Shown: one piece after another, positions 58,357 to 64,000 of the stretch
Layout of the letters: every line of letters starts with the position of its first letter
How positions within the stretch are numbered: position 1 is the stretch's first letter
DNA from: Actinoplanes couchii
Lineage (GTDB): Bacteria; Actinomycetota; Actinomycetes; Mycobacteriales; Micromonosporaceae
Reading direction: 5' to 3'
Length of the DNA stretch: 64,000 nucleotides
Assembly: GCF_016862075.1 (NCBI RefSeq)
Contig: NZ_BOMG01000042.1
Span: 124,001 to 188,000 of the forward strand
The notes under the pieces: generated by a model
What the model saw: the letters and a program-made list of their open reading frames with translations, nothing else
Told to the model about the DNA's origin: nothing
The model's database searches: none
Made by a program: the position numbers and the translations under genes

Positions 58357-58406
58357 TGCGGTGCGGGGTGGCGGCATCGTCCGCGGCACGGAAGGATCTC
58401 CGGGGC

Positions 58407-59843
58407 GTGAGGATCGCCCACTTCTGCGACAGCCATCCGGGCCGGCCCGACGGTGTGACCCGCTCGGTGGAGACGACCGTCGATCTGTTGCGGTCTGCCG
58501 GACACCAGGTGGATCTTTACCGGCCCGGCTCGGTACGCAGCTTTCCGGTGCCGTTCCGTCAGGTCCGGGTGGGGTTACCGTTCGCCGCGCGGCGGGCTGA
58601 CGTGGTTCACGTGCATACGACCGGGCCGATCGGGATGCGCGGGTTCCGGTTCGCCGTGGAGTGGGGCGTGCCGTTGGTGGTCACCTGGCACACGGACCTG
58701 CTGGCATATGCCGACCTGTTCCCGGAGATCCCGCTCGGCGCCGCGTGGTGTGCGATGCGGTTGGGGCTGGGGTGGTCGATGCCCCGGTACCTGGAGCTGA
58801 CCCGCCCCGGACCGGTCCGTCGTGCCCGCCTGGTCCAGTTGGGCCGTGCGATGTTCGAGCAGGTGACGGTGGTGATAGCCCCGTCGGGGAAGACCGCTGC
58901 CGATCTCGCCGAGTTCCACCCCCGACAGATCGAGATACTCCCGACCCCGGTAGCCGACGCGCCCCCGACCACCATCCCTGGCAACCGCCCGCCGACCGCC
59001 GTGCCGAGCGACGTTCCCCCCGGCGCTGTTCTTGGCGATGTCTCGCCGGCCGGCGGTGATGTCGTCCTCTCCGTCGGGCGGGGGACTGCGGAGAAGAACC
59101 CCGAGTTGCTGCTGCGATCCTTCGCCCTGGTGCGGGCGGCCCGACCGGGCACCCGGCTCGTCCTGCTCGGAGTCCGGCAGCGGCGCAGGTACCTGATCCG
59201 GAGAATCGCCGCCCTGGGCCTGACCGGAAGCGTCGACGTCCTCCCCCCGGTGCCGCACCACCAGGTAGCTGATCACTATCGGACCGCTGCGGTCCTGGCC
59301 TTCACCTCGACGACCGACACCCAGAGCCTGGTACTCGCCGAGGCCGAAGCAGCCGGCCTGCCGGTGGTGGTAGCCGATCCCGCCCTCGCCACCCGCCCAG
59401 GCACCCACCGCCCACCTTCCGGCCACCCACCGCCCGGCCCGGATCCCGCTCCCGGATCCGTTACCTGCCCGGATGGCCACCTCCCGCCTTCTGGCCGCCC
59501 ATCGGCCGGCCCGGATCCCGCTCCCGGATCTGCTACCCGGCCGGGTGGCCACTTCCAAGGCCTCGGGTTGTCTGCCGGGCTGGGTCCTGGCTCGAGTTTG
59601 TCCGGCGGGGCGGATCTCGTTTCGGCCGGGCGGTTCACCTGTGAACCCGAACCGGGCGCGGTCGCCTCGGCGCTTCTGCGCATGCTCGGCGACCGCGCTC
59701 TGCGTGCCGCGGTGGCCCGGGACGGGTTGGCAGCCGCGGCGGCCTACCCTCCGGAGGTCTTTCTGCACCGACTGTCGACGATCTATGACGAGGCGGTCAA
59801 AGACCGAAACAGATCAGAGCCCGGCCGTACCGGGGATCGCTGA
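58407..59843 (+). CDS. GT4-family glycosyltransferase with repetitive Pro-rich insertion
   Basis: The start is GTG 58407 with GAAGGA at 58391-58396, giving 478 residues. GT-B fold: 'RIAHFCDSHPGRPDGVTRSVETTVDLLRSAGHQVDLYRPG', 'DVVHVHTTGPIG', 'WHTDLLAYADLFPE', 'VLSVGRGTAEKNPELLLRSF', 'TDTQSLVLAEAEAAGLPVVVAD'. This resembles mannosyltransferases of the MgtA/PimB-like group. After that motif, residues about 330-405 form a low-complexity insertion with a repeated 'SGxPxxGPDPAPGS' unit, before the normal C-terminal helices resume. The 3' end overlaps the convergent CHAT-like gene by 47 bp. Confidence 0.83.
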   Translation: MRIAHFCDSHPGRPDGVTRSVETTVDLLRSAGHQVDLYRPGSVRSFPVPFRQVRVGLPFAARRADVVHVHTTGPIGMRGFRFAVEWGVPLVVTWHTDLLAYADLFPEIPLGAAWCAMRLGLGWSMPRYLELTRPGPVRRARLVQLGRAMFEQVTVVIAPSGKTAADLAEFHPRQIEILPTPVADAPPTTIPGNRPPTAVPSDVPPGAVLGDVSPAGGDVVLSVGRGTAEKNPELLLRSFALVRAARPGTRLVLLGVRQRRRYLIRRIAALGLTGSVDVLPPVPHHQVADHYRTAAVLAFTSTTDTQSLVLAEAEAAGLPVVVADPALATRPGTHRPPSGHPPPGPDPAPGSVTCPDGHLPPSGRPSAGPDPAPGSATRPGGHFQGLGLSAGLGPGSSLSGGADLVSAGRFTCEPEPGAVASALLRMLGDRALRAAVARDGLAAAAAYPPEVFLHRLSTIYDEAVKDRNRSEPGRTGDR

Positions 59844-62025
59844 GATCCACAGCGTGGTACTCGGCCGTCATCAGTTCCGGCGGCTCGCGCCCGGGATCGT
59901 TCAGCCAGCCCCGGACCGCGGCGACGGCTTCGGCCGGCTCCCGGCCCTCGTCCACCAGCGCGGTGTGCAGCATCCAGTAGATCAGCGACGCCACCTGATC
60001 CGGCACCACCTCCCGGAAGCCGATCACCGCCGTGAAGCCGCAGTCCAGCAACGAGCCGGCCAGCGCCCCGAGAACGACCGGACCCGGCGGAAGAACGGCG
60101 ACCCCACCACCCCGGACCGGCGTCCCAGCGATCTCACCGGGCCCCAGAACCGTGGAATCGGCCAGCTCGAGGAAGCCTTCCGAGGTGACACCACAACCGA
60201 GATGCAGCATCGAAGCGTCCAGGTGACCGACGACCTCATCCCGGTCACCCACGCCGTCGTTCTGCTCCACGGTCCATCCCAGACCGGCCGACCGAGGATA
60301 GAAGGCACGCCGCAACCGGAGGGCGTCAACCGTGGCGCTCTCCCGATCCCGCCGCGGATTGGCGACGAAGACCGGCGCCGCCCCGACCGGCCGGCGCCCG
60401 CGCCTGACCAGAGTGACAAGCTGCTCGGCAGTCCGCACCCAGGAGACGTCGGCCCCGCCGACCCCGCTCCCATCACCCGGCCCGTCCTTGTCACCAAGGT
60501 CGTTCCGGCTGCCCGGGCCGCTCTCGTCGGCCGGGCGGTTCTTGTCGGCTGGGCTCTTCTTGTCGGTGGGATTCCTTTCCTCGGGCGGGCCCGCGATGAC
60601 CACCCGGCCGGTCCGAGGCATGCCGGCGGTGATCGTTTCCAGTCGGCCGGTGGCCGCAGTCAGGGCCACGGATCTGAAGAGGAGAGTGTCGATCCCTGCC
60701 TCCCTCATCGCGGCCACGACCTCGGCGAACGCGGTGTCGATGGTGGCGCGGCCGTTCAGTTCGGCGGCAATGCGGTGGGCCGATTCCACCTCGCCCGGGG
60801 TCATCCCGGGAAGATCGGGACCGATCCGGCCGAGGCACCCGGCGGCCGAGCCCGGATCGTCCGGGCCGCCCGGCCAGCCGTTGCCGCCGTCGGCGTGATG
60901 CCTGTCGATCAACGCCTGGGCCAGGGCGATCTGGTCGGCGGGCCGTGCACCGGGAGCCTCCACGACGGCGGCAGCCAGGGCCACTCGATCGTCCGTCGAG
61001 GTGGCGCCGGCCAGAAGTTCCCGAAGTTCGGCCGCGGGAGTGATCGCTTTCGGTTCCTGTCGTGGCCGAGGCTCCGGCCCGTTCACCGGCACCGGCCCGT
61101 CGACTACCGCAACCCGGCCGGGACCGAGAGTGATCACGCTCGGCGGAGGCAACGAGGACGACCACGACGAGGGAGAGGACGGTGAGGGCGAAGACGGTGA
61201 GACGGGTGAGGACCGAGGCGGCGGCGATTGGGAAGGTGGGGGCGAGGTGGATGGCCGCGGCGGGGTGGGGGGTGTGGGGATGGCAGACGGTGGGCGCGGA
61301 GGCGGGACGAGAGTTGTCAGGTCCGGGATGGGCGGCGGCACCAGGCCCATCCCGGTGCCGCCGCTCATCTGCTGGTGCAGGGCCTGCATGTCGGCCAGCG
61401 CCTGGCCCAGCTTGGAGATGTCCACGCCGCCCGGGCCGCCGAGCATTCCCCGCAGCGCCTCCGCCACCGTGCCCAGCGTCGTTGCCGTCGAGATCAGTTC
61501 GGTGTTGATCCGGGGACCGTTCGCGACCTCCCGGAACAGCGCGATCGCCCGGTCCACGTCGGCGGCATCGTCCGAAGCGCCACCGCCACCGCCACCGCCG
61601 CCGAAGCCACCGCCACCAAAAGCGCCGCCGGCCATTTTTCGCATCATCGCCTCGGGGGACGAGAAGCCCGTCATAGTCCTGGTCAGCAGGATCTGGCCCA
61701 GGATCACCTTTGACCCGCCGGTCACCGCCGGCTGCTGGCCCGGGAAGCGCAACGACTCCTCCAGCATCTGCTCGGCGATGGTCCCGTCCCGGGGTCCTCC
61801 GCCGTGTGCCAGGTTCCGGATCCCGTACAGCCAGCCGAGTTGACCGGCCACCTGCCCGCGCAGTGCCTCCCCACCGGCCATCCGCCGGTAGGCCGCCTCC
61901 AGCGTCTCGATCGCCTCGCCCAGCAGGGGCAGCGCCGCGGGGGTGCCGACCCCGGCCCGCAGGTACCGGTTGGTCAGGTCGGAGCCGCGCTCCAGGAGCG
62001 TACGGAAGTCGTCGTTCTCCGTCAT
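59797..62025 (-). CDS. TPR-like protein with a catalytically degenerate CHAT-like domain
   Basis: 742 residues from ATG 62025. Order: helical TPR-like region (about 1-130), a glycine run (about 133-148), more helices, a Pro/Ser-rich linker (about 228-300), helical region, a charged Lys/Asp/Gly linker (about 470-505), and a CHAT-like fold (about 505-742). The fold aligns with the preceding gene's CHAT domain ('MLHLGCGVTSEGFLELADS', 'GSLLDCGFTAVIGFREVVPDQVASLIYWMLHTALVDEG'). The catalytic His position is Gly (codon 60190-60192) and no Cys stands at the nucleophile position. It is probably an inactive partner, substrate or regulator of the upstream protease; the genes are 18 bp apart. Confidence 0.78.
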   Translation of the reverse strand: MTENDDFRTLLERGSDLTNRYLRAGVGTPAALPLLGEAIETLEAAYRRMAGGEALRGQVAGQLGWLYGIRNLAHGGGPRDGTIAEQMLEESLRFPGQQPAVTGGSKVILGQILLTRTMTGFSSPEAMMRKMAGGAFGGGGFGGGGGGGGASDDAADVDRAIALFREVANGPRINTELISTATTLGTVAEALRGMLGGPGGVDISKLGQALADMQALHQQMSGGTGMGLVPPPIPDLTTLVPPPRPPSAIPTPPTPPRPSTSPPPSQSPPPRSSPVSPSSPSPSSPSSWSSSLPPPSVITLGPGRVAVVDGPVPVNGPEPRPRQEPKAITPAAELRELLAGATSTDDRVALAAAVVEAPGARPADQIALAQALIDRHHADGGNGWPGGPDDPGSAAGCLGRIGPDLPGMTPGEVESAHRIAAELNGRATIDTAFAEVVAAMREAGIDTLLFRSVALTAATGRLETITAGMPRTGRVVIAGPPEERNPTDKKSPADKNRPADESGPGSRNDLGDKDGPGDGSGVGGADVSWVRTAEQLVTLVRRGRRPVGAAPVFVANPRRDRESATVDALRLRRAFYPRSAGLGWTVEQNDGVGDRDEVVGHLDASMLHLGCGVTSEGFLELADSTVLGPGEIAGTPVRGGGVAVLPPGPVVLGALAGSLLDCGFTAVIGFREVVPDQVASLIYWMLHTALVDEGREPAEAVAAVRGWLNDPGREPPELMTAEYHAVDLSDPRYGRALICFGL

Positions 62026-62043
62026 CTCACGTCCTCCGTCTCG

Positions 62044-64000
62044 TCACTGTCCGCCGTGGACGAATGCCGCCCAGGCCACCACCGCCGCCAGCCCGGCACG
62101 GTCCAGCCGGTGCCGCAGACCGGCGGGCATGTCCGGTGGGATCTCCCGGTCCGGGTCGAGCATCCACAGCTGTGCGTCCCGCAGCGCGGCCCACGCCGGC
62201 CGCCGTCGTACCCGCAGGTTGTGGTGCACCATGAACATCAGCACCGAGGTGGCGGCGTCCGGCACACTCCATTGGCTGGACAGCACGGTTCGCGCGCCCC
62301 CGGCCAGGAACGCCGTCGCCAGGCTGTAGGCCTCGTCGTAGCCACTCAGCGAGATCCCGGTCCGGCAGGCCGCGAGAACGACCAGACCGAGATCCCTTTC
62401 CGGTACGCCACCGAGCAGCGCCACCAGCTCAGCCGCGGTCAGCCGGTCCGTCTCCGGTTCGGCGGCGTCCGGACCGGTGTCCGCCCCGGCGAGTTGTAGG
62501 TAGGCAGTGGCCCGGGCCCCACCGGTCTGCACGAACCCGTGACAGGCCAGGTGCAGAACCCCGCCGTTGACCGGCCCCGGCGTGGTGAGCCAGGCACGGA
62601 CCTCAGCCGCGGTGCCCCGCCCGGAGCGACTCACCGTGTCGTCCGGCCGCCGCCCCAGATAACGGGCGCCGGGATAGAAGACCTGCCGGATCGCGTACGC
62701 CTCCCGCCGCGCCGCGGGCAACGGATCAGCCGAGCTCTCCGGGTCTCCGACGATCAGCCCGGCCGGCCCGGGAACAACGGCCGGCAGCCCGGCGGACCGC
62801 ACCAGCATCCGCGCCGAAGCGGTCTGCGACAGGGCGATCAGCTCGACGGCATACCGCCCGTCCGGCCGGCGGGCGGCCTGCCAGGGAACCCGCGCCAGGT
62901 CACCCATCGGGATCAGCACGATCCGTGGCGGCCGATCCGGGTGGACCGGCAGCCGCGGCAGGTAGGTCTCGATCAGCGCGGCCATGGCGGCGTCCCAGGC
63001 CCAGCGCCCGATCTCGGTCAGCCGTTCGTCGAGGTCACCGGCGGGCCCGGCACCGGCCGACATGTCCCGCCGGGCCAGAGCGGTCAGGTAGTCGTCCAGC
63101 CGGGGCATGACGCTCGGGGTGAGCGATGTCAGGGTGAGATAGGCGGGCGGCCCGGACGCCGGGGCGATCACCGCGTTACCGGGCCGGTTCTCGGCGCCGG
63201 GCACCAGATAGACGAGCGCGTCGGCGTCCAGATCGACGAGCGCCCGTTGGATCTCGGCATATCCGGGCGGATCGAAGAGTGCCGAGGTGGCCCCGTCCTG
63301 GGCCAGAACGGTCATCACGTCACGGCGCAGGTCGGCCGAGAGCGCCGCCGGGTCACCGGTGGCGGCGGCGGTCCGCCAACGTGCGGCGAGTTCGGTCTTC
63401 CCGGCTGCGGCCAGGTGTTCACCGAGGGAGCCGGTCGCGGTGGCGGCGTAGAGGGCCAGGCCCCGCCCGGCGTCCAGGGCGGTGATGGCCGACCCCGGGT
63501 CGCCGTTTGCCAGGTACTGCCGGGCCACGTCGATGGCGTCGCTTCCGGCGGTCCGCACCGCGGCGGTGGCCGATGCCAGGTCGGGCTGGATCAGCACCTG
63601 CCAGACGGCGCCGCGCAGCCCGTCCAGGGCGATCGGGTCGAAGCCGGTCCGGTCGCCGAGGGTGTGCCGGACCGCCCCGGACAGCTCGCTGATCATCTGC
63701 CACTGCGCGTGGTGCGGGCCGCCCGCCAGGGTCCGGGCCTCGACGAGCAGCTCGTCCGCCGCGCGCAGGTCCGGTTCGTCGGCGCTGACCTCGTACCGGC
63801 GCAGCAGGGCGGTGGCCAGCACCCCCAGGTAGAAGACGCGCTGGGGATGGTCCGGTCCGGCGATGTCCAGGGCGGTGCGCAGCTGGGCGAGGCCGAGTTC
63901 GATCCGGGCCGGGTCGCTCTCCCGCCCGGCCCGGATCGCCGCCATGCCGGCCTGGCTGTGCAGCAGAGCCCGGTCGGGGTTCAGAGTGTCGGCCCGGTCG
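62044..64000 (-). CDS. TPR-CHAT protease, 5' end outside window
   Basis: The frame is open to the window edge (18 codons beyond ATG 63945, reading as TPR), so the N-terminus is missing; 651 residues are visible. TPR-like helices occupy the visible first third. The C-terminal CHAT domain has the dyad: His in 'GVLHLACHGFVQTGG' (codon 62539-62541) and Cys in 'LVVLAACRTGIS' (codon 62365-62367), followed by 'YDEAYSLATAFLAGGARTVLSSQWSVPDAATSVLMFMVHHNL'. It is cytoplasmic as far as seen. It is co-transcribed with the degenerate CHAT-like gene. The target is unknown; a conflict or cell-death role is inference from the family. Confidence 0.85.
   Translation of the reverse strand, partial: DRADTLNPDRALLHSQAGMAAIRAGRESDPARIELGLAQLRTALDIAGPDHPQRVFYLGVLATALLRRYEVSADEPDLRAADELLVEARTLAGGPHHAQWQMISELSGAVRHTLGDRTGFDPIALDGLRGAVWQVLIQPDLASATAAVRTAGSDAIDVARQYLANGDPGSAITALDAGRGLALYAATATGSLGEHLAAAGKTELAARWRTAAATGDPAALSADLRRDVMTVLAQDGATSALFDPPGYAEIQRALVDLDADALVYLVPGAENRPGNAVIAPASGPPAYLTLTSLTPSVMPRLDDYLTALARRDMSAGAGPAGDLDERLTEIGRWAWDAAMAALIETYLPRLPVHPDRPPRIVLIPMGDLARVPWQAARRPDGRYAVELIALSQTASARMLVRSAGLPAVVPGPAGLIVGDPESSADPLPAARREAYAIRQVFYPGARYLGRRPDDTVSRSGRGTAAEVRAWLTTPGPVNGGVLHLACHGFVQTGGARATAYLQLAGADTGPDAAEPETDRLTAAELVALLGGVPERDLGLVVLAACRTGISLSGYDEAYSLATAFLAGGARTVLSSQWSVPDAATSVLMFMVHHNLRVRRRPAWAALRDAQLWMLDPDREIPPDMPAGLRHRLDRAGLAAVVAWAAFVHGGQ

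Follow-up and report, generated by a model that had tools for sequence, protein, structure and literature searches.

A predicted CHAT protease encoded beside a putative dead paralogue in Micromonosporaceae

In a 64,000-nucleotide (nt) stretch of the Actinoplanes couchii genome (contig NZ_BOMG01000042.1, positions 124,001 to 188,000; hereafter, the window), two adjacent genes on the minus strand encode proteins related to CHAT proteases. The upstream gene (A) runs beyond the end of the window and encodes a protein with a His–Cys dyad; the downstream gene (B) encodes a protein whose C-terminus keeps the CHAT fold but has lost the dyad. The coordinates, the strand and the 18-bp spacing given in a preliminary description of this pair were correct. 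The two genes and their parts are as follows, with catalytic residues of A numbered on the fragment of the protein that lies in the window.

62044..64000, continuing to ~64725 beyond the window, minus strand: gene A, TPR-like/CHAT protein with a His–Cys dyad (Pfam CHAT match)
62539..62541, minus strand: codon of the catalytic His of A (His487, in HLACHG)
62365..62367, minus strand: codon of the catalytic Cys of A (Cys545, in LAACRTG)
62026..62043, minus strand: A–B spacer, 18 bp
59797..62025, minus strand: gene B, putative pseudoprotease partner, 742 amino acids (aa), 59% identical in alignment to its A. italicus counterpart
61321..62025, minus strand: all-helical, TPR-like N-terminal domain of B, aa 1–235 (model with nine helices; predicted template-modelling score (pTM) 0.73)
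61126..61320, minus strand: Pro/Ser-rich linker of B, about aa 236–300, shorter in A. italicus
59800..60447, minus strand: pseudo-CHAT domain of B, about aa 527–742 (profile–profile comparison and structure matches)
60343..60360, minus strand: motif region NPR(G/R)DR of B, aa 556–561 (family alignment)
60190..60192, minus strand: Gly612 of B, in the catalytic His column (family alignment)
60082..60084, minus strand: Gly648 of B, in the catalytic Cys column (family alignment)

The window fragment of A matches the Pfam CHAT family (PF12770) at E = 2.1e-48 with 165.7 bits, against a curated cut-off of 24, and the full-length protein, 893 aa when counted from the first start codon (L011:4045-6726, L011 being the window's own locus), matches it at E = 3.7e-48. 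The two catalytic motifs read in the preliminary description were confirmed; the corresponding columns hold His and Cys in 47 of 49 aligned A proteins, a count that omits one A gene interrupted by N (L062) and one with a partial CHAT (L088). The NCBIfam Csx29 model gave the window fragment 14.9 bits, below its cut-off of 300. On the strength of the profile match and the dyad motifs, gene A encodes a CHAT protease that is predicted to be active.

Neither Pfam (at E ≤ 1) nor NCBIfam (at E ≤ 0.01) has a model that matches gene B, so annotation will overlook it. Its C-terminus is nevertheless 26% identical to A over 206 aa (E = 3e-7 in a single pairwise comparison), and an hhalign comparison of a profile of B C-termini with a profile of A CHAT domains gave a probability of 99.9% (E = 4e-35). 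At E ≤ 1, Pfam CHAT matched 13 of 17 C-termini from the B family (best, 1.5e-13), the window's own B being among those unmatched, and a sequence search of the PDB with the B profile gave no credible match. Judged by these comparisons, the C-terminus of B is a CHAT-fold pseudoprotease domain, with Gly at both catalytic sites; the preliminary description had likewise proposed a CHAT fold without its dyad. The N-terminus is weakly related to the region preceding the CHAT of A (67.6%, E = 5e-5, profile–profile comparison), and in this respect B resembles an altered paralogue of A. A fold search with the model of this N-terminal domain, which has a Gly-rich insert around aa 133–150, gave no match at E ≤ 0.001, and its list consisted mostly of TPR and other helical proteins.

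The occurrence of B was surveyed with an N-terminal profile (A3) in 354 genomes of the window's own family, of which 61 matched at E ≤ 1e-5, in 74 places. All counts of B given here refer to the 53 strong places (E < 1e-28) in 46 of the 354 genomes; seven of these 46 genomes carry two copies, and the two records of one A. italicus locus (L002 and L081) were counted once. Five of the 21 weaker places were viewed (L020 and L077–L080), and code for CHAT-type proteins between 758 and 1218 aa long. At E ≤ 1e-8, the profile matched nine of 397 genomes across the order, two of them outside the window's family, and across the class two of 394 genomes matched, both within it, which indicates that the genes are almost restricted to this family. 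Viral contigs yielded no confirmed relative, and a scan of genome contigs with single-sequence patterns matched A. italicus alone. The best plasmid match (P0005) was rejected as a B protein because it is an ordinary, dyad-bearing CHAT protein.

The pairing is kept across these genomes. In 48 of the 53 loci, B is preceded on its own strand by a CHAT-type A gene that ends no more than 52 nt before the B start, and many of the genes overlap, with all gene starts in the survey being assumed starts. In the other five loci, the A gene is interrupted by N (L062), lies 2.3 or 3.7 kb from B (L075 and L076, respectively) or was not found within 4 kb (L055 and L056). Because the same loss of the dyad and the same gene order are found in dozens of genomes, the arrangement in the window is not a chance observation.

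Of the B proteins, 42 exceed 560 aa in length; among these, the catalytic His is absent from 41 and the catalytic Cys from 40. Only L056 retains both, and its CHAT matches Pfam CHAT at E = 2e-15. We rejected this protein as a dyad-bearing member of the pseudo-CHAT clade, because it has no match to a model of the B CHATs at E ≤ 10 and has no adjacent A gene. It is of interest in its own right as a natural domain swap, in which the B N-terminal domain is joined to a different CHAT (L056:7893-10145). The search for homologues with intact catalytic residues thus found an intact dyad in none of the 41 pseudo-CHATs of the B family. All 41 have lost the His, by replacement or by deletion (three, L061, L069 and L071, have a gap in this column, scored as a loss) and the Cys is absent from 40, L059 having a Cys in the Cys column and no His. 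Five of the 42 long proteins (L060, L062, L063, L066 and L067) do not match the active-CHAT model at E ≤ 1e-3 and were classed as pseudo-CHATs by their length and alignment. With the pairing described above, these counts lend good support to the earlier proposal of a dedicated inactive partner.

In an unrooted tree of 100 CHAT domains, all 41 B CHATs fall on the same side of one branch, which has a Shimodaira–Hasegawa-like approximate likelihood ratio (SH-aLRT) support of 96. The ratio of non-synonymous to synonymous substitution rates (dN/dS, by simple counting estimates) of the dead CHAT is 0.25–0.53 in 12 of 12 close pairs, compared with 0.17–0.75 for the B N-terminus; the dead CHAT is the more constrained of the two in nine of the 12. 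The domain also has conserved residues that are not the majority in A (R542 and V701, each in 39 of 39 proteins; P697 in 36 of 39; G669 in 34 of 39). In the NPR(G/R)DR region, P, R, G and D are each the B majority in 28–36 of 39, of which R and G are not the majority in A. The common branch, the dN/dS values and the residues of its own together point to an old pseudoprotease under selection and not to a decaying copy. Where it is kept, the dead CHAT is maintained by purifying selection.

To describe the surroundings of the pair, neighbouring genes were clustered over the 53 loci, whose flanks mostly spanned 5 to 8 kb, and cluster representatives were scanned against Pfam. Of the 53 loci, 33 have a caspase of the Peptidase_C14 family less than 7 kb from B, at most 6.7 kb away. 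Among 34 such caspases, all have the catalytic Cys and 33 the catalytic His. In about 113 Mb of twelve genomes we counted 55 C14 matches; at that density, 53 stretches of 16.6 kb would include about 0.4 with a caspase by chance. As the genomes are related and non-random and the twelve were picked after the neighbour map had been made, this figure serves for orientation and does not amount to a test. In eleven of the twelve, a C14 gene and a B gene are no more than 7 kb apart, the exception being the genome of the window.

Other neighbours recur less often. An uncharacterized family (c3) has 30 genes in 24 of the 53 loci (for example, L013:3502-4656, L053:6175-7218 and L109:5247-6188) and, in 13 of the 53, directly precedes A in the same orientation; the gene order c3–A–B–caspase recurs in G583, a genome from another family of the same order. 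No Pfam match at E ≤ 5 was found for three c3 members, nor any PADLOC or NCBIfam match at E ≤ 0.01 for one. A GAP1 cluster occurs in six of the 53 loci, two DO-GTPase2 clusters together in six and a cluster with vWA in seven (one member of each scanned). The window's own locus, with short flanks on one side, has neither a GAP1 nor a DO-GTPase2 cluster as a neighbour.

A second uncharacterized family (c4; L053:2219-3484 and L081:3949-5214) is present in ten of the 53 loci and often adjoins the caspase gene. By eye, and by eye only, c4 is cyclase-like; two members scanned against Pfam gave nothing at E ≤ 5, and one scanned against PADLOC and NCBIfam gave nothing at E ≤ 0.01. In five of the 53 loci, the gene of a Crp-type regulator that carries a cyclic-nucleotide-binding domain lies near the pair (L051:10592-11290). 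The regulator and c4 are a hint of cyclic-nucleotide signalling.

Taken together, we think it probable that B is an old, dedicated dead paralogue of the TPR–CHAT protease A, made with it from one operon and most likely joined to it in a heteromer in which it regulates A, often with output to a caspase. We infer such a heteromer, a direction of regulation, a substrate and a role in defence along the following lines. A and B would be co-translated and would assemble; the fast-evolving helical N-terminus of B may sense a trigger or recruit the complex, and the dead CHAT may dock on A and either restrain it or switch it on, much as FLIP, which regulates caspase-8, does with its own partner. Once triggered, A would probably cut few substrates, of which the C14 caspase, where it is encoded next door, is the prime candidate, and a cascade from CHAT to caspase would end in death or dormancy. 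In a stronger form, the pair would be a counterpart of caspase-8 and FLIP, with an obligate heteromer of CHAT and dead CHAT as the initiator, the sensor on the dead twin and the co-encoded C14 protein as the executioner of a two-tier cascade free of CRISPR; we regard this extension as speculative, and on balance doubtful.

Several observations weigh against the reading of B as a dedicated regulator of A. The structural model of the B C-terminus, built on four sequences, has low confidence values (predicted local distance difference test (pLDDT) score 55; pTM 0.46), and Foldseek found nothing below E = 0.001 with it. The first two Foldseek ranks are chains of DdvA and ranks 3–34 are CHAT and separase chains; in a structural realignment, the 21 best entries, with Z of 8.0–9.4, are separase, DdvA, Craspase/Csx29 and SAVED-CHAT. 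The model thus aligns best with separase, DdvA and CHAT structures and not with an unrelated fold, the outcome on which the preliminary description had staked its fold assignment. Because best Z values of 7 to 8 are frequent even where no true match exists, the profile result outweighs the structural one as evidence of the fold. Among these matches, DdvA (PDB 8rw5 and 8rot) is a transmembrane anti-sigma factor.

The genes and loci themselves add further points on that side. In all 11 pairs compared, the CHAT of A is under tighter constraint (dN/dS 0.07–0.37, L088 omitted) than the dead CHAT. Distances between A proteins correlate with those between B proteins (rho = 0.47, 39 pairs), as is expected of linked genes and no proof of contact. 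In one of the 48 paired loci (L088), A has only part of a CHAT, its core seemingly gone, and the A proteins of L058 and L073 lack both dyad residues, so that neither protein of the L073 pair keeps a dyad. No caspase lies beside the pair in the window, where the nearest C14 gene on the contig is about 60 kb off, and in 20 of the 53 loci the stretch examined contains no caspase. Finally, 11 of the 53 B proteins (368–490 aa, from assumed starts) end without any CHAT, and ten of these eleven genes still directly follow A. The dead CHAT is therefore not indispensable everywhere, and the N-terminus is the constant part of the B family. On the best trees, the presence or absence of the CHAT changed at least twice along the A tree and four times along the tree of B N-termini, of which the well-supported branches force only one change.

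These points bear on four other explanations. The CHAT-less proteins, with the joining of the same N-terminus to a different, dyad-bearing CHAT in L056, would fit a role for the helical N-terminus as the functional partner of A, a scaffold or sensor, to which the dead CHAT is an optional extra. We consider this a real possibility, although the less probable one, given that the dead CHAT is retained in 41 of the 53 B proteins and mostly evolves under the tighter constraint of the two domains. The same losses, the longer branches of the B CHATs relative to those of A and the weaker constraint might instead speak for a decaying duplicate of A with a functionless C-terminus. We rejected this very improbable explanation on the single common branch, the open reading frames, the dN/dS values well under 1 and the conserved residues particular to B, even though the domain is less constrained than the live CHAT.

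It is also conceivable, if rather unlikely, that B is chiefly a substrate or inhibitor: A would be held by B and would cut its Pro/Ser linker, freeing the helical N-terminus as a signal, in the way that CalpL, a Lon protease, cleaves CalpT, an anti-sigma factor. The long flexible linker between two folded parts and the close pairing of the genes suit such a scheme, for which there is precedent in a CRISPR-associated protease that cuts a co-encoded regulator (PMC11417357). The linker, however, varies in both length and sequence, and a plain substrate would need no selected CHAT fold. Somewhat more plausible, and still tentative, is a house-keeping or developmental function in place of defence. 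The genome of the window has no caspase near the pair and has a glycosyltransferase gene behind B, and neither A nor B had a PADLOC 2.0.0 match at E ≤ 0.01. That gene (window 58398-59843) is convergent with B, overlaps its end by 47 bp and encodes a Pro/Gly-rich insert. Against a house-keeping function stand the patchy presence and occasional doubling of the genes, the fast-evolving N-terminus of B and the neighbours of the conflict-system type in many loci.

The dedicated-partner reading of B accordingly alters two parts of the preliminary description. Of the two-component system proposed there, the A–B pair stands; as an account of the system it is incomplete, given the caspase in most loci and the B proteins that have no dead CHAT. 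The suggested part in death or defence draws on the neighbouring genes, namely the caspases and at some loci the GAP1 and DO-GTPase2 genes, and not on any defence-system match of A or B themselves. Genes of these two kinds, which a GAP1-N2 GTPase-centric system would have beside the pair, are components of a conflict system described in PMC7159879.

The regulatory logic proposed for A and B is suggested by two known systems. In Csx29 of Craspase (type III-E CRISPR), a TPR domain and a pseudo-caspase CHAT1 accompany an active CHAT2 in a separase-like protein (PMC10028731), and the likeness lies in the TPR domain and in the dead CHAT beside the live one. The pseudo-caspase of Csx29 is in cis and tied to Cas7-11, whereas in the present pair an entire dead paralogue is supplied in trans. 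In the VMAP ternary conflict systems (Kaur et al. 2020), inactive caspases accompany active ones; their caspase domains are fused to vWA and VMAP and work with a MoxR ATPase, and the main text does not contain the word CHAT (PMC7159879).

Other relatives share single features. SAVED-CHAT (type III-B CRISPR) resembles A in being a CHAT protease that acts through a cascade of proteolytic activity (PMC11229360). It differs in its SAVED sensor, which binds cyclic oligoadenylate. The next enzyme in its cascade is reportedly a caspase, and we know of no dead CHAT partner of SAVED-CHAT. The B model has the protease domain of separase among its best structural matches, with Z reaching 9.4, whereas separase itself is eukaryotic, a single chain and held by securin (PMC9729208). 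Pseudo-orthocaspases are bacterial caspase homologues without the His–Cys dyad; they are C14 p20 proteins, mostly from Alphaproteobacteria and Cyanobacteria, for which the accessible text describes no pairing with an active copy (PMC6426788).

A dead CHAT encoded in trans was not reported among the literature matches listed, a search whose scope excluded preprints and most subscription papers. If our reading is correct, a selected, trans-encoded dead CHAT would provide a bacterial system in which to dissect the regulation of proteases by pseudoproteases in trans, and would bear on the evolution of caspase-type initiator complexes. It is from cell death in animals that such control of live proteases by dead paralogues is best known. 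The parallel here is FLIP(L), a dead caspase and a paralogue of live initiator caspases (PMC7586951), although it is an animal protein and FLIP and caspase-8 belong to a different caspase family. The nearly constant pairing of A with B and the frequent caspase nearby suggest a regulatory pair like those that control animal cell death.

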